The notes under the pieces are model-generated. The model was given only the letters and a program-made list of their open reading frames with translations. It made no database searches and was not told the DNA's origin. The position numbers were made by a program, and so were the translations under genes. DNA of 64,000 nt from Bacteroidetes bacterium GWF2_40_14 (GTDB lineage: Bacteria > Bacteroidota > Bacteroidia > Bacteroidales > UBA932): assembly GCA_001769195.1 (NCBI GenBank), contig MEOK01000020.1:190797-254796 (forward strand), read 5' to 3'. This document shows positions 4,491 through 30,016 of this stretch, piece after piece (position 1 is the stretch's first letter; each line of letters starts with the position of its first letter).

Positions 4491-5249
4491 ATGTCATTAA
4501 AAAACGTGATTAATAAAGATAACATACCTTGCCATATTGCCATCATAATGGACGGAAATGGTAGGTGGGCGATAAAAAGAGGTAATAGCAGGATATTAGG
4601 TCATAAAGCTGGAGCAATCTCTGTTAGAAAAGTTGTTGAAGCATCTTTAGAGATCGGTGTTAAATATCTAACACTTTATACGTTTTCAACAGAAAACTGG
4701 GAACGACCGAAAATTGAGATAACTGCAATAATGGCTCTCCTCGAGGCTACAATAAATTCTGAAATTGAAGATTTGAAGAAAAATAATGTCAAATTATTAA
4801 CAATAGGTGATTCAGCTCCTTTACCGATTAACGTTATGGAAAAGATTAATTATGCAATAAATGCTACATCAGAGAATACTGGTCTTACTCTTATTTTAGC
4901 GTTAAGCTATGGTGCCAAGCAAGATATTGCTAATGCAATGCGGTTAATTGGTAAGGACGTTGAAAAAGGGATTTTTTCCATTTCGAATATTTCAATCGAT
5001 ACTTTTGGTAAATATCTTTCAACAGCTAATTTACCTGATCCCGAATTACTTATTAGAACAGGCGGAGAATATCGTATCAGTAATTTTTTACTTTGGGAAA
5101 TTGCTTATTCAGAGCTCTACTTTACAGAAACACTATGGCCCGATTTTGATAAAGAAGATTTTTATAAGGCTATACTGAATTATCAAAAAAGAGAAAGGAG
5201 ATATGGAAAAACTAGTAATCAGTTAACAAAAATGAAGAATATTATATGA
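4491..5249 (+). CDS. uppS: Isoprenyl (undecaprenyl-type) diphosphate synthase paralogue
   Basis: This cis-prenyltransferase of 252 residues carries all the usual signatures: IIMDGNGRWA (catalytic Asp21), GHKAG, TLYTFSTENWERP, and the C-terminal RTGGEYRISNFLLWEIAYSE box. Such enzymes elongate farnesyl diphosphate with cis-isoprene units to the polyprenyl carrier lipid. The housekeeping gene normally sits with envelope genes, so a copy in a ceramide/export operon is probably specialised. Together with GtrA and DPM-like GT2 proteins downstream, it may supply a polyprenyl-phosphate sugar carrier (inferred). It overlaps the next gene by 4 nt (ATGA). Confidence 0.85.
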   Translation: MSLKNVINKDNIPCHIAIIMDGNGRWAIKRGNSRILGHKAGAISVRKVVEASLEIGVKYLTLYTFSTENWERPKIEITAIMALLEATINSEIEDLKKNNVKLLTIGDSAPLPINVMEKINYAINATSENTGLTLILALSYGAKQDIANAMRLIGKDVEKGIFSISNISIDTFGKYLSTANLPDPELLIRTGGEYRISNFLLWEIAYSELYFTETLWPDFDKEDFYKAILNYQKRERRYGKTSNQLTKMKNII

Positions 5250-6792: not shown

Positions 6793-7662
6793 ATGGAAAG
6801 AACAGTATCATTAGTATTATCCAGTGGGGGTGCAAGAGGAGTTGCCCATATCGGAGTAATCGAAGAATTGGAACGACAGGGATTTAAAATAACTTCAATA
6901 GCAGGATCTTCGATGGGTGCACTGGTGGGAGGGGTGTATGCATCTGGTAATTTACAAATTTTCAGTGAGTGGATATGTGATCTTGACAAAAAAGCAGTTT
7001 TTAATCTTGTGGATTTTGCGTTAAGTACTAATGGATTAGTTAAAGGCAATAAAGTAATAAAGGAACTAAAAAAAATAATTCCCGACCTTAACATTGAAGA
7101 TTTACCCTTAAATTTTACTGCCGTTACAACCGACATAAAAAATAAAAAAGAGGTTCTATTTGAAGCGGGAAGTCTTTATGAAGCGATCAGAGCTTCTATT
7201 TCAATACCAACTGTTTTCAAGCCATGTATGGTTGAAGGAATGGTTTTAATAGATGGAGGCGTATTGAATCCCTTACCAATCAATCGTGTTAAAAGAAATA
7301 ATAATGATTTGTTAATTGCCGTTGACGTTAACTCTCCAGTTTTATTTGAAAAACATGTTGCTGTCAAAAAAACATCAACGAAAGAAATCGAGTTAAACTA
7401 TTTCACCTTTTTAATGAACAAAGGATTCCGGTTTTTACCAAAATTCACAGGTACACAGCTTAATTATTATACACTATTATCTCAAACAACAAGTTTGATG
7501 ATACAACAAATTTCTGCATTGACAATAGAGATACAACAACCCGATATTTTAATTAAAATCCCTATGAATTCTTATGGACCCTTTCATTTTTATAAATCAG
7601 AAGAAATTATTAAAGCAGGAGAATTAGCCACCCGCAAAGCGTTGGAAGAGTTTCAACGTTGA
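6793..7662 (+). CDS. Patatin-like phospholipase
   Basis: A 289-residue protein with the patatin serine-aspartate dyad: the oxyanion box SSGGARG at residues 10-16, the nucleophile elbow GSSMG with Ser40, and the DGG motif with Asp154. RssA/patatin-type enzymes hydrolyse acyl esters of lipids, usually from the cytosolic face. The start codon follows the stop of the acyltransferase directly, so acylation and deacylation steps are co-expressed. There is no signal peptide. Substrate not visible; lipid remodelling in this pathway is an inference. Confidence 0.85.
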   Translation: MERTVSLVLSSGGARGVAHIGVIEELERQGFKITSIAGSSMGALVGGVYASGNLQIFSEWICDLDKKAVFNLVDFALSTNGLVKGNKVIKELKKIIPDLNIEDLPLNFTAVTTDIKNKKEVLFEAGSLYEAIRASISIPTVFKPCMVEGMVLIDGGVLNPLPINRVKRNNNDLLIAVDVNSPVLFEKHVAVKKTSTKEIELNYFTFLMNKGFRFLPKFTGTQLNYYTLLSQTTSLMIQQISALTIEIQQPDILIKIPMNSYGPFHFYKSEEIIKAGELATRKALEEFQR

Positions 7663-9140: not shown

Positions 9141-9827
9141 ATGAATAAAAAAGATGAAGTAAGAATTCAACATTCCATCTTAAGTAAGATGGAAAAAAGA
9201 GTACTGGTTTGTTTGGCAAAAAAACTTCCTAGACGGGTCACTTCTGACCATTTGACATGGTTGGGACTTTTTGGTGCGATCATTTCTGCAGGAGGATATT
9301 TTCTGTCTAATTGGGATGTTGAATTCTTATGGTTATCCTCTTTAGGATTTGTTGTAAACTGGTTTGGAGACAGTCTTGACGGAACCTTAGCTCGTGTAAG
9401 AAAAGCACAACGACCGATATATGGATTTTACCTCGATCACAACATAGATGGTTTGACTGTCTTAATATTTTGTATCGGTGCCGGAATCTCTCCTTTTATT
9501 TCTTTTTCGCTGGCAATGTTGATACTTTCTGGTTATTATCTTTTATCCATCTTTACGTACATAAATACTTACCTTAGAGGTGAGTTTAAAATTTCATACG
9601 GTGGCTTTGGGCCTACTGAATTACGATTAATCGTAATTCTCATAAACACTCTGTTTATTTACCTGCCAACGGATAATTCACCGATATTTATTATTGGCAT
9701 TCCAATAAAATTGTTTGACCTTTTTGCAATAGTTATAGCCTTGGTGCTGTTTATCATCTACTTTTGGTCCTTTTTTTCAGAAATGATAAAATACGGAAAA
9801 ATTGATCCTCCCCCCACACTTGATTAA
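9141..9827 (+). CDS. CDP-alcohol phosphatidyltransferase family membrane enzyme
   Basis: This 228-residue integral membrane enzyme carries the full signature D-x2-D-G-x2-A-R-x9-G-x3-D-x3-D, with metal-binding Asp77, Asp80, Asp99 and Asp103, and about six hydrophobic helices. The family transfers a phospho-alcohol from a CDP-linked donor to an alcohol acceptor (phosphatidylinositol phosphate, phosphatidylglycerol phosphate, and in some Bacteroidetes inositol lipids). Three genes downstream of it build ceramide, so transfer of a phospho-head-group to or from the sphingolipid branch is likely, but donor and acceptor cannot be read from sequence. It follows the barrel gene by 3 nt. Confidence 0.85.
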   Translation: MNKKDEVRIQHSILSKMEKRVLVCLAKKLPRRVTSDHLTWLGLFGAIISAGGYFLSNWDVEFLWLSSLGFVVNWFGDSLDGTLARVRKAQRPIYGFYLDHNIDGLTVLIFCIGAGISPFISFSLAMLILSGYYLLSIFTYINTYLRGEFKISYGGFGPTELRLIVILINTLFIYLPTDNSPIFIIGIPIKLFDLFAIVIALVLFIIYFWSFFSEMIKYGKIDPPPTLD

Positions 9828-9852
9828 TTTTAGATTTTTTATAATAAAGTAG

Positions 9853-10314
9853 ATGTCAATGCTTTCAAAATACTTAAAATTCTTTATAAGCCGGCTACTG
9901 GGTACACTGATAGAAACGGTAATACTATGGATATTTTCGACCTATTTATTCTTTTCTTATGTGGGAACATACATAGTTGCTCCAACCATTTCTTTTGAAA
10001 TTGTGATGTTTTGCAATTACGTCATATCATATTACTGGATATGGAATAAGCAAATTTCCCAAAAAAACACGAAGTATTTTTTTACTCGCCTTGCTTTATT
10101 CAATATTTCCTCAATTTTAGGTTTTCTCATAAAGATGGGATTTCTCCTTCTTTTCGAGAGCCTTTTTAAATGGGATGTCGTTTACTGTAATCTTATTGCA
10201 TTACTTATCTCCGGCATTGTTAATTTCTTACTTGCAGAACGATTGGTGTTTAAGAAACATGGTCATATATCAGTAATTGATGGCTATGTACTTGTTGAAG
10301 ATCAACTTAAATAA
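9853..10314 (+). CDS. GtrA-like membrane protein
   Basis: This protein of 153 residues has four predicted membrane helices (~12-32, 38-58, 78-100, 110-132) and the GtrA pattern F-x-NY-x(3)-YxWxW (FCNYVISYYWIW) with a closing aromatic/charged tail. GtrA proteins are thought to flip polyprenyl-phosphate-linked sugars. It sits between the phosphotransferase and SPT genes with short spacers. With the UppS paralogue upstream and the DPM-like GT2 genes downstream, it fits a carrier-linked glycosylation branch (inferred). Confidence 0.8.
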   Translation: MSMLSKYLKFFISRLLGTLIETVILWIFSTYLFFSYVGTYIVAPTISFEIVMFCNYVISYYWIWNKQISQKNTKYFFTRLALFNISSILGFLIKMGFLLLFESLFKWDVVYCNLIALLISGIVNFLLAERLVFKKHGHISVIDGYVLVEDQLK

Positions 10315-15681: not shown

Positions 15682-16015
15682 AAAATCACTATTGCCCGCA
15701 TAAACAGCCAATAATTGGTTAAAAAAAATTTCAATTATCCGGCTCTTGCAGGTGTCAGTAAAAACATCAAAGAATGGTTTATGAGAAAAATATAATCTTC
15801 TTGAAAAAGAAACAATAACTCTTTTATATACAGATAACATAAAAGTTTTGTCCGGGGAACCTTAAAAAACATCCACTAATTGATTTTGTGTCAGTTAGGG
15901 ATATAAGTTAAAATTAATTGATTGTTCACCAATCAAAAGGCAGCTGCTTGAAATTAAAAATATTTAAAACAGCATATAATAAATAGGACTTTAAGCGGCA
16001 CGAAGTTAATCAATC
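15682..16015. other. Intergenic region without a recognisable gene
   Basis: These 334 bases separate the plus-strand lipid locus from the convergent minus-strand peptidase gene. The sequence is AT-rich with stops in every frame. I see no strong hairpin with a T-run, no repeat shared with the rest of the window and no RNA gene. Confidence 0.5.
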
Positions 16016-17671
16016 TCATTTTTTGTCAAGTTTCAAGAAATCCTCAAAAGAATATTGCATACCTGAAAGCGCCATTGTTTGTTTTACAATAATCTCCCTG
16101 CTAACAGCATTAAACCAAGAAGCATCAGCTTTCATAATACTTTTCTGTTCGCTTCTGTAAAACTGAGGAAAATCAGCTCCTGAGAATACTCCAACCATTT
16201 CATAGCCTGGAAGTCCTATGAGGTGAGCCCAGGGAACTTTCTTAGGGTCGGATTGAATGGATTTGTTAAGATTCTTCTCAAGCGTTAGATAATTGTCTTG
16301 CCAATACTGTAAGTATTCTGCCGACGGTGAATATCCATAAGCGTATTCATCAACCAGGCCGGCAAAAGCATGTCCCATTTCGTGAACAGGTGCATCATGC
16401 TTTTTATATCCTGTATTGCTTTTATAAAAGCTTTCTGAGTATGAAAAGAAAGCATAGCCAACATCATAGTAATTCTTACCTCCACAACCCATATTTGCGT
16501 CATGATTTACAACCATTACAACTGTGCAATTTGAAATATCAAAGCCAATCAAAGAAGATATTTTTTGCTTGATTGCAAGATTCCCGCTTAATTCAACCCG
16601 GCTTACATCCATTAAAGTAATTCCGTAGTATGTATCTCTTGAATAATGAGGATCAGAAATATATCTTTGCCTTGATACAGCTTTAACCATGTATATATTA
16701 AAGTATTCTTTATAACTCTTGAATGGCTCTGTTTCAAAAATATTATCCCGTGTTCCATTGATAATTGTTTCAAATTCTCCTCCGTTACCCATGGTTGAAC
16801 TTGGAAAACCGTCCCCGGTAATGATGATGTTTACTCCCTTACCTCGGATTGCTTTGTTAAGTAGAACGACTTTACCATGCTCGCTAGGGTTGTATTCCAC
16901 CTGCCTATCGAAGTTACTGAATTTGTATCCATTTTTTTGCCAGGCAACATAGTAAGAAGGACCCCAATCAATCCAGTTTTTGTGGTTGAAAACTTCTTCA
17001 GGTATCTCTCCGCTTAATTTATTCTCGGCAATTGAAAATACTATAAGAGAATCCATATTACCAATCTCCTTTGGAATTGTGCCTGATAGATTATTGTTAA
17101 TTAGAGTTATGGCCTCCACCCTTGCTGTACCTTCAAGCATACCGGCCGAGGTGCAATTAATGCCATACCATGAGTAGATAGGCTTATCGGATAACCAATT
17201 TGCATTATTTGTCCAATCCTTTCCATTGGTTGAATTATAAAATGCTACCAATGCAAGGGAGTCTGTAATCCGGCCTAAACTCCTTCCCCTTTGGGATATT
17301 CTTAATGAAAATGTTCGGACAGGTGTAATCTCGAAGATCACAGTTGCGTTTCTGGATTCAGATTCGTTCTTTTTAAATATTAGCTTATATTTCTTATAAA
17401 AGATACCGTTTTTAGTACTATCCCTTTCCAGAGTAATATTAATCCAATCGGATTCATTTTTAATTGAATACGCAATGTCAGTAGTTATATCGATGCTGAT
17501 TGTTTTTTCTTCTTTTTCAAGAGAGATGCTTTCCTGAGACAATTCGAAAAAGTTTCTTTTAGTTGTGTCGTTTATAATATCAGTATCTTCCTGTATTGTT
17601 TCTTTAGTACAAGAAATGGTAGTGATAGCTATTAAAGCAATTATTAGATTATATAATGTGAAGTGTTTCAT
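16016..17671 (-). CDS. BACON-LRR-M64 metallopeptidase lipoprotein
   Basis: An SPII lipoprotein (Cys21 in TISCTKE) of 551 residues. A BACON domain (~40-130) is followed by a short plant-type LRR segment (~135-230, NNLSGTIPKEIGNMDSL and NKLSGEIPEEV). The C-terminal M64 (IgA-protease-like) domain carries the zinc motif HEMGH at 430-434 followed by AFAGLVDEY. It is probably exposed on the cell surface, where the BACON/LRR part binds glycan or mucin and the M64 domain cleaves protein (inferred). I chose ATG 17671: a longer frame to 17824 would overlap radC and would hide the signal peptide. Confidence 0.85.
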   Translation of the reverse strand: MKHFTLYNLIIALIAITTISCTKETIQEDTDIINDTTKRNFFELSQESISLEKEEKTISIDITTDIAYSIKNESDWINITLERDSTKNGIFYKKYKLIFKKNESESRNATVIFEITPVRTFSLRISQRGRSLGRITDSLALVAFYNSTNGKDWTNNANWLSDKPIYSWYGINCTSAGMLEGTARVEAITLINNNLSGTIPKEIGNMDSLIVFSIAENKLSGEIPEEVFNHKNWIDWGPSYYVAWQKNGYKFSNFDRQVEYNPSEHGKVVLLNKAIRGKGVNIIITGDGFPSSTMGNGGEFETIINGTRDNIFETEPFKSYKEYFNIYMVKAVSRQRYISDPHYSRDTYYGITLMDVSRVELSGNLAIKQKISSLIGFDISNCTVVMVVNHDANMGCGGKNYYDVGYAFFSYSESFYKSNTGYKKHDAPVHEMGHAFAGLVDEYAYGYSPSAEYLQYWQDNYLTLEKNLNKSIQSDPKKVPWAHLIGLPGYEMVGVFSGADFPQFYRSEQKSIMKADASWFNAVSREIIVKQTMALSGMQYSFEDFLKLDKK

Positions 17672-17747
17672 AATATTAAATGCAAAATTAGTAAAATATT
17701 GAATATCTGTATAAGCCCTCCGGAGAGGGCTCTCATTGATGATAACA

Positions 17748-18359
17748 TTACATAATACCATCATCCGCAAAGCTAAAGTAACTGTCACCGGCAATAATGA
17801 CGTGATCCAGTAGTGTGATGTCAAAAAGGTCAGCTGCTCCTTTCAGCAACTTTGTCTGAACTTTGTCATTCTCACCGGGATGAGTGTTCCCCGATGGGTG
17901 GTTGTGTATAAGAATTATCGAACAGGCAAGTAGCTCAAGGGCTCTTTTCAGTATGATTTTCACGTCAACGACTGTTGCACATACGCCACCTATGGATAGC
18001 TGTTCCTTGATGAGCACTTTGTTCGCCCTGTTCAGGTAAAACACCCAACACTCTTCGTGTGATAGATGCTTTAGTATGGGTGACATTATTGCTGCTATGG
18101 AGCTTGAGGATTGGATGGATTCTCTTTCCGGAATGGGAGCCAATGAGTACCTGTGAGCCACTTCACCGAGGGCAGTTATCTTTGCAATGGTGGATGACCT
18201 GAAGCCTTTTCTGAGGAGTGCCTCACGGCTTGATTTGAAAAGATCTAGAAAATCGCAGGATTCCAGATTGATTCCCAGAAGCTGGAGAAGCTCCACGTCC
18301 CTTAAAGCCTTTACGCCGGCTTGTTGATACAGTTCCTGAATTTCTTTTAGTGTTCTCAT
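17748..18359 (-). CDS. radC: RadC-family JAB/MPN domain protein
   Basis: 203 residues. An N-terminal helix-hairpin-helix region (~15-70) is followed by the RadC JAB domain with metal ligands His152 and His154 (LIHNHPSGN) and Asp165. The RadC family is named for DNA repair but its biochemical role is unclear, and many copies ride on mobile DNA. Here the usual PS before the Asp is PG, and the protein is a little shorter than average. It is transcribed with the M64 gene, 76 nt apart. Confidence 0.85.
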   Translation of the reverse strand: MRTLKEIQELYQQAGVKALRDVELLQLLGINLESCDFLDLFKSSREALLRKGFRSSTIAKITALGEVAHRYSLAPIPERESIQSSSSIAAIMSPILKHLSHEECWVFYLNRANKVLIKEQLSIGGVCATVVDVKIILKRALELLACSIILIHNHPSGNTHPGENDKVQTKLLKGAADLFDITLLDHVIIAGDSYFSFADDGIM

Positions 18360-18774
18360 AATACATTGTTTTTAAGTGAATTTGAGGCATAAAAGAAAAG
18401 CGAACGGATGTGCAGGGATTTTCATGAGAATACTACCTGAAAGTGTGGAGATTGTCAGGAAAACAACGCCTGTCCTTGCACAGCGTCAAGTGAGCGAAAT
18501 ATCTTTGCCGACAATTCACAAAAACAGAATGAGAACGAAATTCAGTAAAGCAACAATAAGTACAGCCGCGCTCAGGTTTCAAAGAAAAATGGGAAACCTA
18601 AGATTATAAGACACTGTCCAGTATTTTGCGTAATGATAATGCAGAAACTGCAATGTAGAAGAAAAGTAACGGTACAGTAGGATTGTCAGTTGTATACGAT
18701 AGTTTTGCAGTTGGTTGTTCTGCTATTAATTCAATAAAAAAAACGCAATGTATTTGTCTTATCAATTGCTTGTA
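18360..18774. other. Intergenic region carrying one copy of a degenerate repeat
   Basis: 415 bases between the radC start and the radical-SAM gene end. The stretch 18417-18455 is copy A of the dispersed element also seen near 21061, 21459 and 21616 (GAATACTACCTGAAAGTGTG version). A 77-codon frame here (18376-18609) is Arg/Lys-rich and spans the repeat; I do not treat it as a gene. Confidence 0.5.
18417..18455 (+). repeat. Dispersed degenerate repeat, copy A
   Basis: Core pattern (TTTTGAGAA)(A)ATA-Y-T-M-CC, then TA-rich bases, then GTGGAGATTGT. Copies C, D and B lie within 21.0-21.7 kb on the same strand. Copies A and B also share a downstream TTTGCC...CAGAATGAG segment. Confidence 0.45.
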
Positions 18775-20253
18775 TTAGGAATTCTTAAACTTTTCCTTCC
18801 TTTCAAGCAATATTTGTCTGTTGAGTTTTGCGATATTGCAAAAAAACTCATTGACTACTAACGGATCTCCATTTGGATTTTCATTTGAATTTCTGACCAT
18901 ACACATGGTGCAAAATTCTTTATCCTTACATTGAATACATTTAGGAAAGTCTTGATTGCGCAAGTCTCTTAAATATTTCACTTTTTCAGAATTATCCCAA
19001 ATATCATTTAGAGAAGCTTCTTTAACATTACCAACAATATAATCCTGCCAGCCGGCACATGGATATACATCTCCGTTGTCTGCTATGCAAATAGAGGAAT
19101 GGCAAACACTACAAACAAAATCGTTAGATGTAATATTTTTTTTCTCTTCAGCTAGCATTTCCATTAGGTCCAAATATTTTACGTCTTTAGCAATTTTTTC
19201 GTTGATCACTTCTTTGATTTCATTAATTGATAGACGACAAGTCAAATTTTGTGTTGTATGATTGTATCTAGCTATGATGCCATAATCATCTCCGACATGA
19301 ATCTTATACTTTTTCGCCCAATTTATAACATCATCATAACTGTTTTTGTTTTGTTTCATTATTGGGCAGCTTATTTGCAAAGGGATATCGTTTTCAATCA
19401 GTTTTAAGATTGCATTTTTTGTTTTTTCGAAACTCCCTTTTATTTGGGTTATCTCATCGTGAATATTGGAAATCATTGAGTATAATGAGACCTGAACACC
19501 TAAAAGGGGGTTTGTCTTCATTTCTTTGATAATTACATCATCAAGCAAAGTTAAGTTACTAAGCACATTTACAGATAAATCATATTCTTTGCATTTTTTT
19601 AAAAAATCGCAAAAGTTTTTGTGTAACATTGGTTCACCACCACTTAATGTTAAATGCAACAACCTCATATTTTTACATTGATGTAAAACATCATAAAATA
19701 AGTCAGGATCGATATAACTTACTTTGTAATCATGTGGAATATAGCAATGTATGCACCTTTCATTGCATATGCTAGTAATTTCTATGTGCAAGTTTGAAAG
19801 TTGAGGTTTGCCTTTAAAGTATTCTTCAAAAAAATCCTGTGTGGGTTTTTCAGGATGCTCAATAGTCGTTGGGAATTTTTTTTTTGTTATTTCTGGATCT
19901 AATATTGTGTATGAAAACCTCGTGTCTTTTTCATCGCATTCCTGCATTGTTTCTCCAGAAACAATAAATCCATCTTGTTCAAGCATACAATAAAATTCTC
20001 TGACATCTCTCTTTATTGTTATGATATCAATATCTGAAAATTGCTTATTTACTTTTTTTGCAAGCTCATCAAGGGTTTGCGGTATTCTATCTAAAACAGA
20101 AAAAAAAACGGCACCACTTTCCGATAGAATTTTGTCCCCGATGTAGTTAGCATTTTTATTCGTTAGTTCATATCCGAAATTTCTATTGTCCGTAATATAT
20201 CCGAAGGACTCATAGTCTCTGAATATAACATTAGATTTTTGCTTGAAAAACAT
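18775..20253 (-). CDS. Radical SAM/SPASM peptide maturase with N-terminal PqqD-like region
   Basis: A 492-residue RiPP-type maturase. Residues ~5-105 resemble a PqqD-like RiPP recognition element (YELTNKNANYIGDKIL, LDRIPQTLDELAKKV). The radical SAM barrel follows, with the [4Fe-4S] motif Cys163-x3-Cys167-x2-Cys170 and SGGEP at 204-208. A C-terminal SPASM domain has cysteines 381, 384, 389, 399, 439, 442, 448, 451 and 472, enough for two auxiliary clusters. Such enzymes make thioether or carbon cross-links or epimerise residues in a precursor peptide. A 38-residue precursor with a strong Shine-Dalgarno sequence lies 75 nt upstream. The modification chemistry cannot be read from sequence. Confidence 0.9.
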   Translation of the reverse strand: MFFKQKSNVIFRDYESFGYITDNRNFGYELTNKNANYIGDKILSESGAVFFSVLDRIPQTLDELAKKVNKQFSDIDIITIKRDVREFYCMLEQDGFIVSGETMQECDEKDTRFSYTILDPEITKKKFPTTIEHPEKPTQDFFEEYFKGKPQLSNLHIEITSICNERCIHCYIPHDYKVSYIDPDLFYDVLHQCKNMRLLHLTLSGGEPMLHKNFCDFLKKCKEYDLSVNVLSNLTLLDDVIIKEMKTNPLLGVQVSLYSMISNIHDEITQIKGSFEKTKNAILKLIENDIPLQISCPIMKQNKNSYDDVINWAKKYKIHVGDDYGIIARYNHTTQNLTCRLSINEIKEVINEKIAKDVKYLDLMEMLAEEKKNITSNDFVCSVCHSSICIADNGDVYPCAGWQDYIVGNVKEASLNDIWDNSEKVKYLRDLRNQDFPKCIQCKDKEFCTMCMVRNSNENPNGDPLVVNEFFCNIAKLNRQILLERKEKFKNS

Positions 20254-20278
20254 AAAAACATCTTTTTTCTTTAGTAAC

Positions 20279-20315
20279 CAGGCGACGAGTTATAGTTGTA
20301 TAATATCGCCGCCTG
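20279..20315 (-). promoter_or_regulatory. Hairpin between RiPP precursor and maturase genes
   Basis: Arms CAGGCGGCGA and TCGTCGCCTG (minus-strand reading) pair over 10 positions with one G-U, around a 17-nt AT-rich loop. There is no T-run directly after it, so a processing or partial-attenuation element that yields more precursor than enzyme is more likely than a full terminator. Confidence 0.6.
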
Positions 20316-20328
20316 ATTAAATTGTTCA

Positions 20329-20445
20329 TTAACGTCCACTAGGCTTTGGTGGATTACATGGCCTTCCACTCGGTTTACTATTGGGACGGCATTCTGCCAT
20401 CTTTACAATACTTTGTGCCAAGATTTTTGGTTTTTTGTAAGTCAT
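20329..20445 (-). CDS. RiPP precursor peptide with two C..P..KPSGR units
   Basis: A 38-residue peptide. It begins MTYKKPKILAQS, a leader resembling the KPK-[IV]-LA-[QK]-[SN] leaders of SPASM-maturase substrates. It ends in a 20-residue core made of two units, CRPNSKPSGRP and CNPPKPSGR (Cys19 and Cys30; KPSGR at 24-28 and 34-38). The core has no aromatic residue, which argues against cyclophane or Trp-linked chemistry and favours Cys thioethers or another Lys/Arg/Ser/Asn modification (inferred). The start is fixed by an AGGAGGT Shine-Dalgarno at 20455-20461, 10 nt ahead of ATG, unusually strong for this phylum. No dedicated transporter or peptidase gene is adjacent. Confidence 0.8.
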   Translation of the reverse strand: MTYKKPKILAQSIVKMAECRPNSKPSGRPCNPPKPSGR

Positions 20446-20733
20446 AAGTTTCACACCTCCTTTTTATAGATTTTTTTGTTATTAACCAGAATTAATATAT
20501 TATTCAAAGCCATATCATCTATTATTTTACTATATTCAAATGCTCCTTTAATGGATTCAGTTGTTTGTGCAATCTTGCATAACTATCTATAATGTTTCTT
20601 ACGGATTTTCCAAACAAATGGCTCATAGTTACATAAGCTATAAAGTTATAATACTTTTTTAATTGCACCAAATAGAACTGCTTTTGCCACATTCTTTATT
20701 TCCAAAATACTCAAACAATAAAAAGCCAAAGAC

Positions 20734-20907
20734 CTACTTCACTGGTTTGGGTTTTCCTATCTCTGTAAATAGTGTTACTGTATGAATTTGATTGAATTCG
20801 GGCATCCTGTTGCTTTCCAGATTTTTCGATGTTGTGACATATGGTCTCATCAACGAACTCACCAGTCTGTTCTTTAACCTGTCATAAGTGGCTATCGAAA
20901 GCCTCAT
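20734..20907 (-). CDS. Possible small hypothetical protein (57 aa)
   Basis: Opens with ATG at 20907 and reads MRLSIATYDRLKNRLVSS through LFTEIGKPKPVK to TAG. It is basic and soluble, with no signal peptide and no known motif. There is no clear Shine-Dalgarno sequence. It could be a decayed fragment of a mobile-element gene or chance. Confidence 0.25.
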   Translation of the reverse strand: MRLSIATYDRLKNRLVSSLMRPYVTTSKNLESNRMPEFNQIHTVTLFTEIGKPKPVK

Positions 20908-21060
20908 TACTGCTGCACTGCTTTAATGGTTGTACCTCTTATTGAAAATCCAACATTTACTACTATGCGTACATAATTCTTTTTATCATAATTGATTTTT
21001 TAGGTAAATATTTTGAATTTTAATAGTAGCGATTAAAGGTGAATGACTGCAGATAAAAGG

Positions 21061-21100
21061 TTTTGAAAAAGAATATTCCCTATAAGTGTGGAGATTGTTA
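21061..21100 (+). repeat. Dispersed degenerate repeat, copy C
   Basis: TTTTGAAAAAGAATATTCCC followed by TATAAGTGTGGAGATTGT. It shares the GTGTGGAGATTGT end with copy A and the AATATTCCC start with copy D. Confidence 0.45.
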
Positions 21101-21255
21101 CAAAAAAGGTTCACGATAATGAATTTAAATTTTTTTGATTCGGTAAAATTCTAGACTTATATTATGAATCATTGAAAAGTAATACCTGCAAAGAAATGAT
21201 TGCGCCATAGAATTAGCCTAAAATCATATCATTTATTATATTGATTTGCAATTAA

Positions 21256-21456
21256 CTAGTTAATAAAGTTTAAGTAGAATAAAAGAATAGTAGTGATAAT
21301 AACGAACATTGTGATTATCATATAAAATACAATCTTAAAAATCGCTCTAAGAGTGTAGAAAAGAATTATCAAGAATGGGGCAGTACCACACTTTAAACAA
21401 ATGAGAGTTAATGAAACAAAGAATAATAACTTAAAAAATCTCTTATTACATATCAT
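21256..21456 (-). CDS. Small hydrophobic membrane protein (66 aa)
   Basis: From ATG 21456 the frame gives MICNKRFFKLLFFVSLTL, then a Cys/Gly turn and a second long hydrophobic stretch ending YLNFIN, i.e. two predicted membrane helices. A longer frame to 21594 would add an Arg/Lys-rich part that is just the reverse of repeat copy D, so the shorter start is preferred. No family recognised. It could be a small membrane toxin-like or accessory protein of the neighbouring mobile region, but nothing shows this. Confidence 0.35.
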   Translation of the reverse strand: MICNKRFFKLLFFVSLTLICLKCGTAPFLIILFYTLRAIFKIVFYMIITMFVIITTILLFYLNFIN

Positions 21457-21458
21457 CC

Positions 21459-21492
21459 TTTTGAGAATATTCCCCGTATAAATGCGAATTTG
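21459..21492 (+). repeat. Dispersed degenerate repeat, copy D
   Basis: TTTTGAGAATATTCCCCGTA followed by TAAATGCGAATTTGT. It lies directly before (minus-strand sense) the small membrane protein gene. It is the most diverged copy in the second half. Confidence 0.4.
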
Positions 21493-21615
21493 TGAGGTAG
21501 GGGAGTTTTTGCTTCGGTTGATTGCTTTCATGATCCGACTTTTTTTTATGCGCCTTTCGATCGGCTTGTCGTTTTTGTTTCGTTGGCAATACATTGTAGG
21601 ATTTGGAAGTAAAGG

Positions 21616-21655
21616 TTTTTGAGAAAAATACTACCCATAGGGATGGAGATTTTTT
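21616..21655 (+). repeat. Dispersed degenerate repeat, copy B
   Basis: TTTTTGAGAAAAATACTACC followed by CATAGGGATGGAGATTTTTTG. Similar flanking sequence (TTTGCCATACGAAA, AGCAGAATGAGG) extends to about 21750 and partly matches the flank of copy A. Confidence 0.45.
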
Positions 21656-21964
21656 GCAAAACCGCAAGGCTAGACCTTTTACTCCCAAACAAATCCGGAA
21701 ATAAATTTGCCATACGAAATAAAACGCTGAGCCAAAAAGCAGAATGAGGAGTGGTTAATTCATAGAAGAAAATTGCATTACACTATAGTTTAAATACATG
21801 TAATTAACACGGAAGCTGGTTGCCTTGAACCGGCAGATAATTGAATTAACAAAAGAATTTGAGCAGAAATGGTTGCATAAATAAATGTAGGAAATTCGCT
21901 TTTTGGAGCATTGGCATACAATCAAAAGAAGATCGTTGAAGGTGTAGCCTTTAAGTGAAGTTTA

Positions 21965-22011
21965 GTGCAAGGTGCAAGTATATATCTATATATATAGCTT
22001 GCACCTTGCAC
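21965..22011. repeat. Perfect 14-bp inverted repeat with AT-rich stem-loop
   Basis: Left arm GTGCAAGGTGCAAG (21965-21978) and right arm CTTGCACCTTGCAC (21998-22011) are perfect complements. The 19-bp centre of alternating TA bases can pair further. Each arm is itself a tandem GTGCAAG repeat. There is no T-run, so it is not an ordinary terminator. It lies just outside the left long direct repeat of the defence island. Confidence 0.6.
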
Positions 22012-22075
22012 CAATCATAAAGTACTGAAATAAAAAGTTTTGGAAATTCTAAAAAGAAGAGTAATTTTGAACCCA

Positions 22076-22217
22076 GAAAAACACGTTCTTTTAGGTATTG
22101 AACCCACGGAAAAAACGACAACAATTTCCATGACCAATTCATGACCTATTGAAATATTGAAAATCTAACTCATTTATATTGTGTTTGTTATGGTGGCTGG
22201 TTCAGAACCCAACCGAA
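22076..22217 (+). repeat. Long imperfect direct repeat, left copy
   Basis: About 140 bp beginning AGAAAAACACGTTCTTTTAG, containing GACCAATTCATGACCTATTG and ending near CAGAACCCAACCGA. It matches 28085-28231 in the same orientation with scattered changes. The two copies enclose the AbiH operon, integrase remnant and first AbiE pair. Confidence 0.6.
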
Positions 22218-22219
22218 TC

Positions 22220-22347
22220 ACAAAGCAAAAAACTTAAGCTGTGCATCGCACAGCTTTTTTTTATTTTGGGGCTGACCGCATGCAAATGTATTTGCTGCGG
22301 CTGCCCCAAATAAAAAAGGGCAGAGCCCCTTAAGTTTTTTGCTTTGT
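22220..22347. repeat. 19-bp inverted repeat enclosing nested hairpins
   Basis: ACAAAGCAAAAAACTTAAG (22220-22238) is the exact reverse complement of 22329-22347. Inside are the hairpin 22238-22254, a long imperfect stem TTGGGGC/CCGCATGCAAAT paired with ATTTGCTGCGG/GCCCCAA, and a GGGC-AGA-GCCC stem. Confidence 0.65.
22238..22262 (+). terminator. Rho-independent terminator-like hairpin
   Basis: GCTGTGC-ATC-GCACAGC is followed by eight T residues (22255-22262). It is a perfect 7-bp GC-rich stem with a 3-nt loop, terminating plus-strand transcription. Confidence 0.65.
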
Positions 22348-22391
22348 AGAGCCCCCCACCGCGGATCACCGAGCGATAGCGAGGTAATCCC
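22270..22391 (+). repeat. Structured ~122-bp repeat, left copy
   Basis: Begins GGCTGACCGCATGCAAATG and ends CACCGAGCGATAGCGAGGT then AATCC. It recurs nearly unchanged at 26231-26353 in the same orientation. It holds several stem-loops, including GGATCACC...GGTAATCC. It is a REP/MITE-like intergenic element of unknown function. Confidence 0.7.
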
Positions 22392-22456
22392 TAGAGAATT
22401 AAATAAACAAATAAAAACCTTTTGATACATTTATTGCGAGGCCTTTTTATTTTGTA

Positions 22457-22496: not shown

Positions 22497-23591
22497 TTAT
22501 AGTGGTTTGCAATCTTTAATGTTTACAATTTTTTTTCTCATTTTCGCTTTCTGGTCAAGAGGGAATATCCGTGAAATATTCATTGTTTTTTCTTTATAGT
22601 CATTTGTCCCATCTTCCTTTTTATAATAGTAGATTTGAATTTTTTTACAATTGTCTGCACAGAAGAGCTCCTTTAATAATACCCTATCACTAACGCCACA
22701 CGAATGCCCCATTATATGTATGTTGTATTCCTGATTCTCTAATAATCCTATTAATGATGAATATGCTCTACTATGAAAATAGTCAAAGGATTTAAAGTTG
22801 CTTAAAATATCATTATCGCCAATTTCCTCCAATTCGCTGTACCTTTTATCGGATTCATCTCCATATCCAAAAATAATAGAATTTATGTCGCTAAGATTTC
22901 CATGAATATCAATGAGAAATGCGTTATCCCTTATACCGTATTTATTAATGAAATGACTGTAACATACTCTTGCTGTATTAGTATAATTGAAATTTAACAG
23001 AACTATTTTATAGTCACTTAGCTCCCCAGCAGAGGCCTTTTGGGTAATATCTATTTTGCATTTTGCAAACAATATATTTAGAGAATCTAAGATAGAGCCA
23101 TTAAGATCAACACCTAAAATATTCTTAGGCGTTTTATCCTCCAGATATTCAAGAAGTTCATTTTTAATTATAGATAAGCAGGAATTCAGATCCTTAACTT
23201 TCTTATTGATCAGTGTTTCGTCATAGTCGTCTGGGTTTTCATCAGCTCCAGGATCTAATTTATGTGTATTGGTAACAGTCTTGTATAAGTACAAAAAATA
23301 TTCTCTTTCGATACCTTCCCAGGTACTGGACTTGTGATTTTCTACGATTTCTTTAAAAAAGTCATGTTTGTATTCATGCGTTAATTTTTCTCGGTCTAAT
23401 TCTCCTTTAGCATTGAATAGATATGGACCTATTTTTTTTATTTTAATTAGGCTATGATCCATCGTGACCCACCCACTTTTTTCTGATATAGCATATGATT
23501 TTTTTATATACCAATCAATGAAATGAGAGTATAGTGTTTCATAACCATGCGCACGGTCAAATCCGTTACCTATAATTACTAACTCTACCAT
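22497..23591 (-). CDS. abiH: AbiH-family phage abortive infection protein
   Basis: 364 residues from ATG 23591 (an ATG 9 nt upstream is also possible). The N-terminus LVIIGNGFDRAHGYETLYSHF is the defining AbiH start (GNGFD, a Rossmann-like turn). Further conserved blocks are DIHGNLSD...IFGYGDE and HIMGHSCGVSDRVLLKELF. AbiH proteins abort phage infection by an unknown mechanism. It is the last gene of a minus-strand operon and overlaps the 90-residue gene by 7 nt. The neighbouring integrase remnant and flanking repeats indicate acquisition on a mobile element. Confidence 0.85.
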   Translation of the reverse strand: MVELVIIGNGFDRAHGYETLYSHFIDWYIKKSYAISEKSGWVTMDHSLIKIKKIGPYLFNAKGELDREKLTHEYKHDFFKEIVENHKSSTWEGIEREYFLYLYKTVTNTHKLDPGADENPDDYDETLINKKVKDLNSCLSIIKNELLEYLEDKTPKNILGVDLNGSILDSLNILFAKCKIDITQKASAGELSDYKIVLLNFNYTNTARVCYSHFINKYGIRDNAFLIDIHGNLSDINSIIFGYGDESDKRYSELEEIGDNDILSNFKSFDYFHSRAYSSLIGLLENQEYNIHIMGHSCGVSDRVLLKELFCADNCKKIQIYYYKKEDGTNDYKEKTMNISRIFPLDQKAKMRKKIVNIKDCKPL

Positions 23592-23857
23592 AATAAACAA
23601 ACTTTATTTGTAAATACCCCACCCTTACCGGTAAGCAGCCATTCAGCCGAAATCCCATAATCGTTAACATAGTAAATCAACAATGCTGTTTGAAAAATAT
23701 CCCGTGACATATCTTTTTGAAGGGAATTGAGATTCCACCTGTTTATACCGTACTTGGTGGTAAACGTTTGTTTCCCATGAATTATCTTGGCCTCCTTTAA
23801 TAATTTAAAGGCCTCAAAAAATCGCTTTATCACTTCCTGACTCTCCGGAGTTTGCAT
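23585..23857 (-). CDS. Small phage-repressor-like helix-turn-helix protein
   Basis: 90 residues, ending YGISAEWLLTGKGGVF, the typical tail of XRE-like repressors in Bacteroidetes phages and elements. The N-terminal helices (FFEAFKLLKEAKIIHGKQTF, TTKYGINRWNLNSLQKD) would form the DNA-binding part. Likely a regulator of this operon. Its stop overlaps the abiH start, so translation is coupled. Confidence 0.55.
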   Translation of the reverse strand: MQTPESQEVIKRFFEAFKLLKEAKIIHGKQTFTTKYGINRWNLNSLQKDMSRDIFQTALLIYYVNDYGISAEWLLTGKGGVFTNKVCLLW

Positions 23858-26435: not shown

Positions 26436-26473
26436 TATATTTGCAAAAGGATACACAAATCGTATCTATTTGC
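26436..26473 (+). promoter_or_regulatory. Promoter -7 element and palindromic operator of AbiE pair 1
   Basis: TATATTTG at 26436-26443 is a Bacteroidota -7 element. It overlaps an inverted repeat with arms GCAAAAGGATAC (26443-26454) and GTATCTATTTGC (26462-26473), matching at 10 of 12 positions. AbiEi antitoxins are known to repress their own promoters by binding inverted repeats, so this is the likely operator. Confidence 0.5.
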
Positions 26474-26482
26474 AATTTGAAT

Positions 26483-27298
26483 ATGTCAAATAAAACAACC
26501 ATATCATACGGGTATATAGAGAAATTTCTATCGGATATTCGCTCGAGAGGCAGGTATGCTTTTACACTTGAGGAGCTGATGGAGGAATTTAATCTCCCTT
26601 ACTTAACAATCAAACAAGGGCTGTATCGACTTAAATTGAAAAAAGTAATTTTTCAAGTGAGACAGGGGTTTTACACAATTGTCCCACCAGAATATTCTGC
26701 TCAAGGGATAATCCCTCTCTATTTTTATTTGGATGATTTGATGAAGTATCTTGGCAGAACATATTATTTAAGTCTGCTCTCAGCAGCCGCATTACATGGA
26801 GCAGCTCATCAGCAACCTATGGAGTTCTTTGTGACAATTCAACATCCTGCCCTCAGAAGCATTAAGAATAAGAAGGTGAAAATAAATTTTGTCCTAAAGA
26901 ACAATTGGCCAGAGGAGGCAATAGTTCAGCATAAGACAAATTCTGGATACATAAATGTATCTTCACCTGAATGGACAGCATTGGATCTTATGGCTTATGC
27001 TGATAAATTTGGACTTAATCGTGTGGTTACTGTCATTCAGGAATTAGCAGCAGAAATTAAAGTCTCTAATCTTTTTAGAGCTGCAATAAAATATGATAAT
27101 ATCTCCAATTTACAGCGCTTGGGATATATTCTGGATAATTTTATTGATGAGGAGAATAAATTAGCCGATTCGTTGCATAAAGTATTGGAGAAAAAGAAAT
27201 ACAATTTGATATTATTGTCTCCTGTAAAAGGGAAAAAAGGAGAAATTGATAAAAAATGGAGAGTGAGAAAAAATATGGAAATCGAAAGTGACTTATGA
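26483..27298 (+). CDS. AbiEi-type antitoxin (type IV toxin-antitoxin), pair 1
   Basis: 271 residues from ATG 26483 (a frame from 26441 would start inside the promoter). An N-terminal winged-helix region (FTLEELMEEFNLPYLTIKQGLYRLKLKKVIF..RQGFYTIVPPEY) precedes the AbiEi C-terminal domain (YYLSLLSAAALHGAAHQQP, VSSPEWTALDLMAY). The antitoxin represses the operon and counters the toxin. It overlaps the toxin gene by 4 nt (ATGA), the usual arrangement. Confidence 0.8.
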   Translation: MSNKTTISYGYIEKFLSDIRSRGRYAFTLEELMEEFNLPYLTIKQGLYRLKLKKVIFQVRQGFYTIVPPEYSAQGIIPLYFYLDDLMKYLGRTYYLSLLSAAALHGAAHQQPMEFFVTIQHPALRSIKNKKVKINFVLKNNWPEEAIVQHKTNSGYINVSSPEWTALDLMAYADKFGLNRVVTVIQELAAEIKVSNLFRAAIKYDNISNLQRLGYILDNFIDEENKLADSLHKVLEKKKYNLILLSPVKGKKGEIDKKWRVRKNMEIESDL

Positions 27299-28086
27299 TA
27301 CCTCAAAGATACATAGAAGAATGGAAAATTTCTGCTCCGTGGCCTAATGATGCCCAGGTCGAGCAGGATCTGATAATAGCAAGAGCCTTAGTTGAAATTT
27401 TTTCCGATGATATGTTAAGGGAATCGTTGGCATTTAGAGGGGGTACAGCTCTTCATAAGCTCTATGTGCAGCCTCAAGCCCGATATTCTGAAGATATTGA
27501 TTTAGTGCAAATTAAGCCAGAACCCATTAATCCGATACTTAAAAGAATAAGGGAGCGACTTTCGTTCATGGGGACAAAGAGAACAGTAAAACAACATATT
27601 CACAATAATACTATCATTTACAGGTTTGAAACAGAAATTCAGCCCATTATTAATATGAGATTAAAAATAGAGATCAATACACGTGAACATTTTGATGTCT
27701 TAGGGATGAAACTTATTCCTTATCAGATTAAAAACGGATGGTTTTCTGGTGAATGTAATTTGAATTGTTATGATTTGGAGGAGTTATTGGGGACGAAACT
27801 AAGAGCATTATACCAACGGCGCAAAGGGAGGGATTTGTTTGATTTATATTGGACTTTAAGAAACCATGAAATTGATGAAGAGAAAGTTGTTAAATGCTAT
27901 AAAGCTTACATGAAATACTCTGTAAAACAACCACCTACTCAAAAACAGTTTTTAGCAAACATTGAAGAGAAGATGAAAGATATTGAGTTCACTCAGGATA
28001 TTCATATAATCCTAAAACAGGGAGTTGATTATAATAACGAGACGGCTTGGGCCTTAGTAAACGAAAAATTGATTAGTAAAATATAG
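27295..28086 (+). CDS. AbiEii-type nucleotidyltransferase toxin, pair 1
   Basis: 263 residues of the AbiEii/AbiGii nucleotidyltransferase family. FRGGTALHK (GGT at 49-51) is followed by RYSEDIDL with catalytic Asp67 and Asp69, then a KLRALYQRRKGRDLFDLYW block (motif with conserved Lys and Asp). Members add nucleotides to tRNA acceptor ends and stop growth. The motifs are intact, so it is probably active. The stop codon lies at the edge of the right long direct repeat. Confidence 0.85.
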   Translation: MIPQRYIEEWKISAPWPNDAQVEQDLIIARALVEIFSDDMLRESLAFRGGTALHKLYVQPQARYSEDIDLVQIKPEPINPILKRIRERLSFMGTKRTVKQHIHNNTIIYRFETEIQPIINMRLKIEINTREHFDVLGMKLIPYQIKNGWFSGECNLNCYDLEELLGTKLRALYQRRKGRDLFDLYWTLRNHEIDEEKVVKCYKAYMKYSVKQPPTQKQFLANIEEKMKDIEFTQDIHIILKQGVDYNNETAWALVNEKLISKI

Positions 28087-28231
28087 AAAAACACATTCTT
28101 TTAGGTATTGAATCCACAGGAAAAACGACAAAAATTCCTGTGACCAATTAATGACCTATTGAAAATATGAAAAGATAACGTATTGATATTTAGTTTGTCA
28201 TAGAAATAGGTTCACAACCCAACCGAGTCGC
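28085..28231 (+). repeat. Long imperfect direct repeat, right copy
   Basis: Matches 22076-22217: AGAAAAACACATTCTTTTAG, GACCAATTAATGACCTATTG and a CACAACCCAACCGAGTC end. It begins at the stop codon of the AbiEii gene. Confidence 0.6.
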
Positions 28232-28297
28232 TAAAATGTTCAAAAACAGACAAAACCTACAATATCAAGTAATAGGTTTGTTTATTTTCAATTTGTC

Positions 28298-28326
28298 CGG
28301 AATAATGGTTAAAAAAATGGTCACAA
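28298..28326 (+). repeat. Possible third, diverged copy of the candidate attachment repeat
   Basis: CGGAATAATGGTTAAAAAAA followed by TGGTCACAA resembles the GGAATGATTA double unit at 22457 and 26130. It lies ~70 nt after the right long repeat. The similarity is weak. Confidence 0.3.
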
Positions 28327-28348
28327 TTAGATGTTTCATCAAATTAAT

Positions 28349-28385
28349 TTTGTTTGTCGCAAAATATATCTAAATTTGCGACAAA
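28349..28385 (+). promoter_or_regulatory. Promoter of AbiE pair 2 with perfect 11-bp inverted-repeat operator
   Basis: TTTG at 28349-28352 and TAAATTTG at 28371-28378 (18-nt spacer) form the promoter. The perfect arms TTTGTCGCAAA (28353-28363) and TTTGCGACAAA (28375-28385) are spaced 22 bp centre to centre, two helical turns, and cover the spacer and the -7 element. This is a textbook position for AbiEi autorepression. Confidence 0.65.
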
Positions 28386-28403
28386 TCTTCATGGGATTAT
28401 TAT

Positions 28404-29006
28404 ATGCAAAAAACTGTAAATGAAATAGAAAGTCTAATAAAACAGAAGCAAAAAGGGAAAATATATTTTGCTTCAGACTTTGTATTAATGGGTACTCCAA
28501 AGACAATAAATAAATCTTTGGAGAGATTGGAGCAATCGAAAACTATAATTAGAATAGCAAGGGGAATTTACTACTATCCAAAAACCGATACAAAATTAGG
28601 TTTAGGTATCCTCTATCCTTCACTGGAAGAGATCGCAAAAGAAATTGCCAAGAGGGATAAGGCAAGAATAGTTCCAACAGGTATTTATGCATTGAATAAA
28701 TTAGGATTATCAACTCAAGTTCCCATGAATATTGTATACCTGACAGATGGAACTCCAAGAAGAATAAAAATTGGAGATGGCAAGGGAATTCTTTTCAAAC
28801 ATACAGCTCCCAAAAATTTAGCCTATAAAAATGATCTTATATTATTAATCGTTTCTGCTCTTAAAGCTATTGGAAAAGAAAATATCAAAAATGAAGATAT
28901 TGAAAAGTTGCGAATCCTGCTCTCTTCTAGACAAATATCAGACTGGAAAGATGACCTTAAATTAGCCCCCGCATGGATTAAACAAATATTAATATCAAAA
29001 GTATGA
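28404..29006 (+). CDS. AbiEi-type antitoxin (DUF6088-like), pair 2
   Basis: 200 residues: an N-terminal winged helix (GKIYFASDFVLMGTPKTINKSLERLEQSKTIIRIARGIYYYP) and a smaller AbiEi-like C-terminal domain (ARIVPTGIYALNKLGLS, NIVYLTDGTPRRI). It is shorter than and clearly not a recent copy of the antitoxin of pair 1. The 4-nt overlap with the toxin gene and the palindrome over the promoter support an autoregulated type IV system. Confidence 0.8.
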   Translation: MQKTVNEIESLIKQKQKGKIYFASDFVLMGTPKTINKSLERLEQSKTIIRIARGIYYYPKTDTKLGLGILYPSLEEIAKEIAKRDKARIVPTGIYALNKLGLSTQVPMNIVYLTDGTPRRIKIGDGKGILFKHTAPKNLAYKNDLILLIVSALKAIGKENIKNEDIEKLRILLSSRQISDWKDDLKLAPAWIKQILISKV

Positions 29007-30016
29007 ATGAGTGGTTAAGGCTATCACAAGATGACAGAAAAACGGTAATATTACAGACCGCAGCCAAATTAAATCTTTCAGTAGAAGCGATAGAAAAGGA
29101 TTGGTGGGTAACTATTGCATTAAGAGCATTATTCCAGTGTGATTTTGCCAACGCAATGGTATTTAAAGGTGGAACTTCATTAAGTAAAGCATGGAAGTTA
29201 ATTGAGAGATTTTCTGAAGACATTGATATAGCGATAGATAGATCTTATCTGGGATTTTCCGGAGAGTTGAAGAAAAAAGAAATTACAGAATTAAGAAGAG
29301 CATCTTGTTCTTTTGTTAATACAATTTTGCTTTATCAACTTGATCAGAACCTTAAATCAATAGGTGTAACAGGGTACAAACTCTCACTCAAAGAATTAAA
29401 AGATACAACAGCAGATCCTCAGGTAGTTGAACTTAGCTTTGATTCTCTATTTGGAGAGGGTGAGTATATTAAAGAAAAGGTATTAATAGAGATTGGTGCC
29501 AGATCATTAATAGAACCGTCTCAGAATAAAGTAATAAAATCCTTAATTAGTGAGCAATACCCGAATTCAAATTTTGCGGATAAGGATTTTGACATACCAA
29601 CTGTTCTGCCTACCAGAACTTTTTTAGAAAAAGCTTTTTTACTCCATGAGAAATTTCAAAAACCAGTTGACCCAAGTGGAGTTATTAGGTTGAGTAGACA
29701 TTTCTATGACTTGGAAAAACTAATGGATACAGATTTTGCCAAGGCAGCACTTGCAGATAAAATTTTATATGAATCGATTGTAGAGCATAGGCGTAAATTG
29801 ACCAAGATAAGCGGGATAGATTATTCAACACACAACCCTCAAGCAATAAACTTTATACCTCCTGTTCACATAATTGATGCCTTAAAATCAGATTATGAAG
29901 ATATGCAGTCGAGTATGATTTATGGTGAATCCTTATCTTTTGATTCATTAATCAGTCGTATTACAGAATTGAATAATAGATTTCATCTTAGACAATATCT
30001 TGATCCTCGATTTTAA
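29003..30016 (+). CDS. AbiEii-type nucleotidyltransferase toxin, pair 2
   Basis: 337 residues. The nucleotidyltransferase core is FKGGTSLSKAWKLIERFSEDID (GGT at 56-58, Asp73 and Asp75). Later motifs include VLIEIGARS and a HFYDLEKL block with a trailing helical domain. It belongs to the longer AbiEii branch usually paired with DUF6088 antitoxins. Catalytic residues are intact. It is the last gene of the island before the convergent secreted-protein gene. Confidence 0.85.
   Translation: MNEWLRLSQDDRKTVILQTAAKLNLSVEAIEKDWWVTIALRALFQCDFANAMVFKGGTSLSKAWKLIERFSEDIDIAIDRSYLGFSGELKKKEITELRRASCSFVNTILLYQLDQNLKSIGVTGYKLSLKELKDTTADPQVVELSFDSLFGEGEYIKEKVLIEIGARSLIEPSQNKVIKSLISEQYPNSNFADKDFDIPTVLPTRTFLEKAFLLHEKFQKPVDPSGVIRLSRHFYDLEKLMDTDFAKAALADKILYESIVEHRRKLTKISGIDYSTHNPQAINFIPPVHIIDALKSDYEDMQSSMIYGESLSFDSLISRITELNNRFHLRQYLDPRF

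Follow-up and report, generated by a model that had tools for sequence, protein, structure and literature searches.

A 38-codon open reading frame (ORF) in front of a radical SAM gene raises the question of whether the two encode a RiPP precursor and the enzyme that modifies it and, if so, what the product does for the bacteria that carry them. The pair lies in a stretch of 64,000 nucleotides of Bacteroidetes bacterium GWF2_40_14 (contig MEOK01000020.1, positions 190,797 to 254,796), referred to below as the window. Because the ORF is paired with orthologous maturases, its cysteines and core are conserved, the stem-loop between the genes covaries and the codon differences between two plasmid copies are all synonymous, we assign the pair, from comparative sequence data, as an unannotated RiPP precursor and its maturase; the peptide is almost certainly modified by the adjacent radical enzyme. 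Mobile elements carry the two genes as a pair between distant bacteria, and the pair often sits amid virus-defence genes; it may therefore represent a novel type of compact protective system in bacteria.

A conserved peptide gene precedes a radical SAM/SPASM gene

On the minus strand of the window, positions 20329-20445 translate to MTYKKPKILAQSIVKMAECRPNSKPSGRPCNPPKPSGR followed by a stop, and an AGGAGGT ribosome-binding site (20455-20461, minus strand) ends 9 nt before the ATG. The ORF of the 492-aa maturase (18775-20253, minus strand) starts after a gap of 75 nt. At its N-terminus is a PqqD-like recognition domain whose Pfam match (25.4 bits) is only 2 bits over the cut-off of 23.4; Radical_SAM (65.4 bits) and SPASM (43.7 bits) were matched as well, with the CX3CX2C motif at C163/C167/C170 and conserved C-terminal cysteines at C381-C472. 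The CX3CX2C motif, the SPASM domain and the RRE/PqqD domain expected of a radical SAM RiPP enzyme are thus all present, and a short precursor ORF is conserved as a pair with the enzyme. These results agree with the first-pass annotation, which had described a 38-codon gene with an AGGAGGT site upstream of a SPASM radical SAM maturase. No NCBIfam equivalog model reached its cut-off for the maturase, so its reaction is not readable from its family, and searches with NCBIfam and Pfam models assigned the peptide to no known family. An AlphaFold model of the maturase, based on 13 sequences, was poor (mean pLDDT 49), and a tree of 22 maturases had 3 well-supported inner branches of 19, too weak for placing transfers.

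A recount across all fetched loci yielded 22 distinct peptides. The leader occupies approximately residues 1-18, and the KKPKILAQS-type sequence noticed at its start in the window is conserved among the orthologues as YxKPxxLAxS/G. The core (C19-R38) consists of two C-x-P...P-x-G-R units. P6, A10, M16, A17, C19 and P21 were constant in the 21 aligned peptides, and the second Cys was present in 21 of 21 (by eye); both cysteines and most of CRPNSKPSGRPCNPP are conserved, the plasmid peptide described below being identical to that of the window over this segment. The core had been read as two near-copies. A common unit (C-x-P-...-P-x-G-R, with a short variable stretch) and the two cysteines bear this out, but the repeat is loose: unit 1 is far more conserved than unit 2, where C30, P35 and the final R/K are kept but most other positions are variable.

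Two plasmid copies of the pair (L046 and L047), one on an E. coli and one on a Photobacterium plasmid, have peptide genes with 17 codon differences, 17 of 17 synonymous, and maturases with 364 of 475 residues matching (77%). Purifying selection therefore acts on the peptide gene. Between the peptide and maturase genes lies a stem-loop (window 20275-20319, minus strand). RNAalifold on 19 of 20 spacers, with the 267-nt spacer of L045 left out and that of L039 used in part, gave 8 stem pairs, 4 of which had changes on both sides with pairing kept, so that the stem is conserved by covariation. When two plasmid copies were folded, the stem-loop was followed by a T-run, as in a terminator. The element is probably an attenuator or processing hairpin, and its simplest reading would be attenuation that leaves more peptide than enzyme.

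The pair is rare and occurs in distant bacteria

When 99 genomes, comprising that of the window and its relatives, were searched, two further maturase orthologues were found, 83% and 73% identical, the latter cut at a contig end; both have the peptide in front. Pattern scans found 14 loci in a collection holding one genome for each of 84,980 species and 1 locus in IMG/VR. The first-pass annotation had proposed a RiPP precursor paired with its maturase, a proposal that depends on the ORF being conserved in front of orthologous maturases: it precedes them in 14 of the 15 loci, and the 22 distinct versions give the same picture. The 15th locus (L040) is on a 5,520-bp contig whose start truncates the maturase gene; the peptide is encoded at the opposite end. 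The peptide was also found in genomes G263, G240, G606, G432 and G1130, and it was present with every non-remnant maturase scoring at least 570 bits to a maturase profile built without three sequences (L040 and L043, which are cut, and L041, which is frameshifted). The pairing is far beyond chance.

Carriers belong to the Bacteroidota, Thermodesulfobacteriota and Bacillota and include gammaproteobacterial plasmids; among the scan loci are Dysgonomonas, Odoribacter, Tannerella, Paludibacter, Desulfatitalea, a Desulfuromonadaceae and a bin of the Bacillota family Peptococcaceae. One carrier, Dysgonomonas capnocytophagoides DSM 22835 (L035), is in culture. Small MAG contigs can be misbinned; a 2.94-Mb contig from the phylum of the Peptococcaceae bin (G1130) also holds the peptide, with the maturase interrupted by an apparent insertion sequence. 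The frequency at E<=1e-60 was low, at 7 of 393 Bacteroidales genomes (including G114, which has a different core), 2 of 296 genomes from the phylum, 1 of 198 from the phylum of Desulfatitalea and 3 of 249 from that of G748 (one a remnant only), each draw counting its own centre. None of 5426 E. coli RefSeq complete genomes held most of the L046 cassette; 30 matched it, with only the resolvase end covered among the matches listed. Phage carriage was considered and rejected: one putative viral contig of IMG/VR (L045/L050) carries the cassette, and an annotated phage collection contained no full-length relative (2 records, covering 53-54% of the query at 23-27% identity).

Peptide and maturase are the sole cargo of two Tn3-family units

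Seven plasmid records (5 E. coli, 1 Salmonella and 1 Photobacterium) have maturases 51-53% identical to that of the window and one identical 38-aa peptide. No annotated feature lies under the peptide in any of the seven copies, although the gene table is stated to be incomplete; the gene therefore appears to have been missed, as the first-pass annotation had supposed. We fetched four of these plasmids (L046, L047, L048 and L049) for analysis of carriage. In L046, 49-nt inverted repeats (3897-3945 and 9988-10036) enclose the pair together with genes for a Tn3-family transposase and a resolvase; in L047, 55-nt repeats (4478-4532 and 9606-9660) enclose it together with tnpA and tnpR. The L047 tnpA is in two pieces, 23-36% identical to that of L046, which is whole. 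The L047 unit is flanked exactly by TATAT on both sides; in L046 a target duplication, TTATA, is found only with the left edge shifted by one base. Terminal repeats, a 5-bp duplication and tnpA/tnpR, as expected of a Tn3-family unit, are thus present in both, exactly in L047 and with the one-base shift in L046. The other two plasmids have the same Tn3 unit without its left end, and a Tn3 transposase domain was found in two members of the set of neighbouring proteins described below.

Inside the repeats of L046 and L047 there is no other ATG-initiated ORF of at least 80 aa, except an 86-aa antisense frame within tnpA. Precursor and maturase are therefore the sole cargo of two different Tn3-family units, each consisting of tnpA, tnpR, precursor and maturase. 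These two units hence lack any gene for export, proteolysis or immunity, which suggests that the product acts inside the producer or uses host functions. In L046 the 3' portion of the resolvase gene is also present as direct repeats on either side of the cassette (7289-7599 and 9609-9918, ~80% identical), a possible trace of cassette entry.

The cassette often resides among defence genes

In the window the inserted cassette extends over approximately 18610-20570, its edges being set by comparison with congeners; 18674-20566 is 86% identical to congener G004. The fixed downstream edge of this variable site is a RadC JAB-domain gene (17748-18359, minus strand; Pfam RadC), conserved in G004 and in a second congener, G023. 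In G023 the flanks are retained (93% identity over window 16012-18563, 71-91% over pieces of 20622-22394), and between them, instead of the cassette, lies a Shedu domain (SduA_C, PF14082; 82.5 bits, cut-off 27), in a gene seemingly split over two frames, as well as an HNH-like ORF. The cassette is thus exchanged with a Shedu gene at one site beside radC. Labels such as HNH-like, single-strand-binding protein, insertion sequence and transposase for ORFs in this congener's locus (L101), in that of G1130 (L107) and near 20.7 kb of the window were assigned by eye. Upstream of the cassette (window 20734-20907) lies what remains of a gene for a single-strand-binding protein, apparently intact in G023 (L101:6409-6819). 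Next to radC is an M64-type peptidase gene with a weak BACON-like match (window 16016-17674). Of 25 genomes of the genus, 4 have this gene, in each case beside radC; as congeners, the window and G004 both carry it together with radC.

Upstream of the cassette in the window are an AbiH abortive-infection gene (22497-23600, minus strand; Pfam AbiH 86.3 bits, PADLOC AbiH weak at 23.6 bits) and two AbiEi/AbiEii pairs (26441-30016, plus strand; four proteins, best PADLOC E 6.4e-68 to 1.6e-114). At other loci PADLOC matched a TIR gene (L063), an OLD/AriA/GajA-like gene (L065), a CD-NTase (L066), a methyltransferase (L068), a PDC-S01 ATPase (L069), HsdS of type I restriction (L070), DUF4917/PDC-S21 (L073, the same contig as L040) and, weakly, ZacB (L071); a DpnII restriction gene is the third gene upstream of the cassette in L064. 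The scanned neighbours at L061, L062, L067 and L072 gave no PADLOC match, and 6 of the 15 loci had no positive immediate neighbour (these four, L064, and L075, whose neighbours were outside the one-by-one scan).

As single proteins (PADLOC, E<=1e-5), 10 of 20 neighbours, chosen partly by eye, were positive against 1 of 20 controls (Fisher p 0.003), the latter being 20 of the 30 listed control proteins. A strict count over all 28 immediate neighbours (27 and one across the L073 contig end), in which 19 were scanned, the 9 unscanned were taken as misses and DpnII was dropped, still left 9 positives among 28, compared with 1 of 20 controls (p 0.03). When whole loci were counted, 9 of 15 cassette loci and 1 of 14 control places were positive (p 0.005). 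As whole sets, 359 PADLOC models found a match among 107 neighbours at 21 loci (108 entries less one maturase fragment) and 70 among 107 controls from 16 random places (112 entries less 5 long proteins), counts inflated by redundant models, since one OLD-like protein accounts for 86 and one HsdS for 59. The pair is thus located with known defence genes more often than control regions are, subject to the selection caveats just given; because the controls were random places of carrier genomes and not random islands, the enrichment indicates residence among defence genes, not function, and the neighbours may only reflect shared riding of islands. On the maturase side, the only neighbour common to several independent loci is a TPR-repeat protein, encoded directly downstream in three of them at 41-58% identity (L062:4248-5765, L063:7104-8900 and L069:18905-19789), a possible accessory or receptor. 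The stem-loop, transposon carriage and defence context were all added to what the first-pass annotation had seen.

Predicted modification of the core

Phe, Tyr and Trp are absent from the core in 22 of 22 distinct peptides (that of L056 has one His). The lack of aromatic residues seen in the window thus holds throughout, and the cyclophane, streptide and Trp-linked classes do not fit. Modification at Cys would be the probable outcome, given the two conserved cysteines, and we give about even odds that it consists of thioethers. When the maturase profile was compared with solved sequences, the best match was SkfB (6efn; 63.4 bits, E 1.5e-16), followed by PqqE (38.9 bits) and 5v1q (35.2 bits). 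SkfB is described as a thioether-forming sactisynthase (PMC8326336), and Cys-to-backbone bridges are weakly favoured because it scored best. The models for sactipeptide enzymes remained below their cut-offs for the maturase (AlbA 60.2/850, SkfB 59/300 and StsB 65.8/625 bits), as did that for PapB (58/340 bits). Ranthipeptides of the PapB kind have Cx3D motifs; no Asp stands at C+4 in the precursor cores. The cassette resembles sactipeptides and ranthipeptides (SkfB, AlbA, CteB and PapB) in having a leader-core precursor beside a radical SAM-SPASM enzyme, an N-terminal recognition domain on the enzyme and Cys in the core, and differs from them in its Pro-rich basic core and in the lack of exporter and immunity genes in the two transposon units.

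The first-pass annotation had gone on to suggest two identical rings. The alignment gives this no support: N22, S26, P32 and the second G vary, so no single acceptor common to both halves was seen beyond C, P and R. L058 lacks N22, Lys replaces P32 in L035, and the L073 peptide ends in PPGPSR without the second G; a fixed-acceptor thioether as a strict rule was rejected on these three sequences. S26 is Cys in L041 and in the divergent L056, where CGRPC replaces SGRPC and gives a third Cys.

Prokaryotic viperins (pVip) are radical SAM proteins listed as defence proteins and share the radical SAM core with the maturase. The PADLOC pVip model matched the maturase at 60.3 bits over residues 157-319 (profile 4-167 of 257). 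Viperins act on nucleotides, whereas the maturase is paired with a peptide and has PqqD and SPASM domains as well; with a match only partial and SPASM present, identity as a viperin was rejected.

Proposed function and alternatives

The cassette is a new family within a known kind, the radical SAM RiPPs. No description of the peptide or cassette was found in the accessible portion of the open-licence literature on RiPPs, anti-phage defence, SPASM enzymes and Tn3, nor in the available part of a study of Bacteroidales RiPP mining (PMC10352776); within those sources the view that no RiPP with such a core had been described stands. The explanation that best covers the data, to which we give a probability of roughly 0.42, is a self-sufficient mobile two-gene RiPP cassette whose Cys-modified product acts within the cell and protects it. 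With the help of the intergenic hairpin, more precursor than maturase would be translated; the PqqD-like domain would bind the YxKPxxLAxS leader; and the radical SAM and SPASM clusters would act on the two invariant cysteines of the core, a Cys-to-backbone thioether bridge in each C-x-P...P-x-G-R unit being the likeliest result. The modified basic, Pro-rich peptide would act inside the producing cell, perhaps after trimming by host proteases, and mobile elements and defence islands would retain the cassette because it is protective, most likely against phage or competing elements.

Taken singly, intracellular action is somewhat favoured by the gene content of the transposon units, and defence as the benefit to the carrier is a tentative suggestion. 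A defence effector is nevertheless our best guess because of the defence context and because there is a precedent: lanthipeptides encoded in Streptomyces defence islands are reported to act intracellularly against phage (PMC12360287). The cassette shares with them the residence of RiPP genes in defence islands; they have lanthionine chemistry and belong to Actinomycetota, whereas the cassette has a radical SAM enzyme, other phyla and Tn3 carriage, and its activity would be a prediction. The bolder version is more doubtful: it would make this the first radical SAM-made RiPP to be a cell-autonomous immune effector, moving between phyla as a complete two-gene unit, both as Tn3 cargo and as a module of defence islands, with a doubly Cys-modified Pro/Arg-rich peptide that acts on a highly conserved target. 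Nearly the same 20-residue core occurs in Bacteroidota, Bacillota, Thermodesulfobacteriota and Gammaproteobacteria, so such a target would have to be very conserved; the translation machinery, or a step that phages have in common, would be examples. Constancy of this degree from phylum to phylum is not usual in arms-race effectors and argues against defence; a housekeeping function, as ligand or as cofactor, would fit it too. If the protective reading is true, the use of the peptide and its carriage as a complete two-gene transposon cargo are new, a RiPP family has been missed by annotation, a maturase and a 38-codon gene make up a complete selectable trait, and the cassette is a small, testable candidate for radical SAM peptides as immune effectors.

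Alternatively, the product could be a bacteriocin or signal secreted through an exporter and trimmed by a protease of the host, the defence neighbours being mere co-residents of islands. Sactipeptides from related enzymes are often antibiotics, and lanthipeptide clusters in general also co-locate with defence genes (PMC12715929). We consider this unlikely, since the two Tn3 units have no dedicated transport or immunity gene, the TPR protein is the only shared maturase-side neighbour, and there is no GG before C19 in any of the 22 distinct peptides. Bacteriocin cores also usually diversify, and this one is very constant.

An addiction or stability module, in which the peptide (modified or unmodified) is harmful and the maturase or its product relieves the harm, would suit a two-gene unit on plasmids, transposons and islands. 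It is quite improbable, as L041 and G1130 keep an intact peptide ORF although the maturase is broken, which argues against a harmful unmodified peptide. To a similarly small degree we credit a metal- or stress-handling peptide with Cys as ligand, possibly thiooxazole-like, borne on Tn3 as metal-resistance cargo is. The two invariant cysteines and the Tn3 carriage are in line with it, and the radical SAM enzyme SbtM reportedly forms a thiooxazole from Cys; yet no metal genes were noticed beside the cassette when the annotated plasmid stretches were read, and the context elsewhere is defence-like. A precursor of a peptide-derived cofactor of the PQQ/mycofactocin type, for which the constant core and PqqD/SPASM enzyme might speak, is very improbable in view of a core devoid of Phe, Tyr and Trp and Tn3 units devoid of further processing enzymes.

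Related and degenerate loci

In addition to the loci described above, broken maturases adjoin intact peptide ORFs in L041 (frameshifts) and L107 of G1130 (apparent insertion sequence), indicating repeated decay of the cassette. In G1042 (L108) only the last third of the maturase remains, and no precursor was seen in the preceding 2.2 kb. The L073 contig (1-5520) has a 162-bp terminal direct overlap and is therefore perhaps a circle of ~5.36 kb; no replication gene was recognised on it, and it contains the cassette, the defence-candidate gene DUF4917 (PDC-S21) and one unknown ORF. A sibling locus in G114 (L057), whose peptide was kept apart from the 22 distinct ones, has a maturase scoring 442 bits to the same profile, which as a query found only itself in 149 genomes. 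The precursor in front of it (1214-1339, plus strand) has the leader MKKYQKPKVVAKN and an unrelated core with three cysteines, YAAGCPAKGTGTSTYCRSCERSS. With the same type of leader and a different core, the maturase family seems to have been core-swapped at least once.
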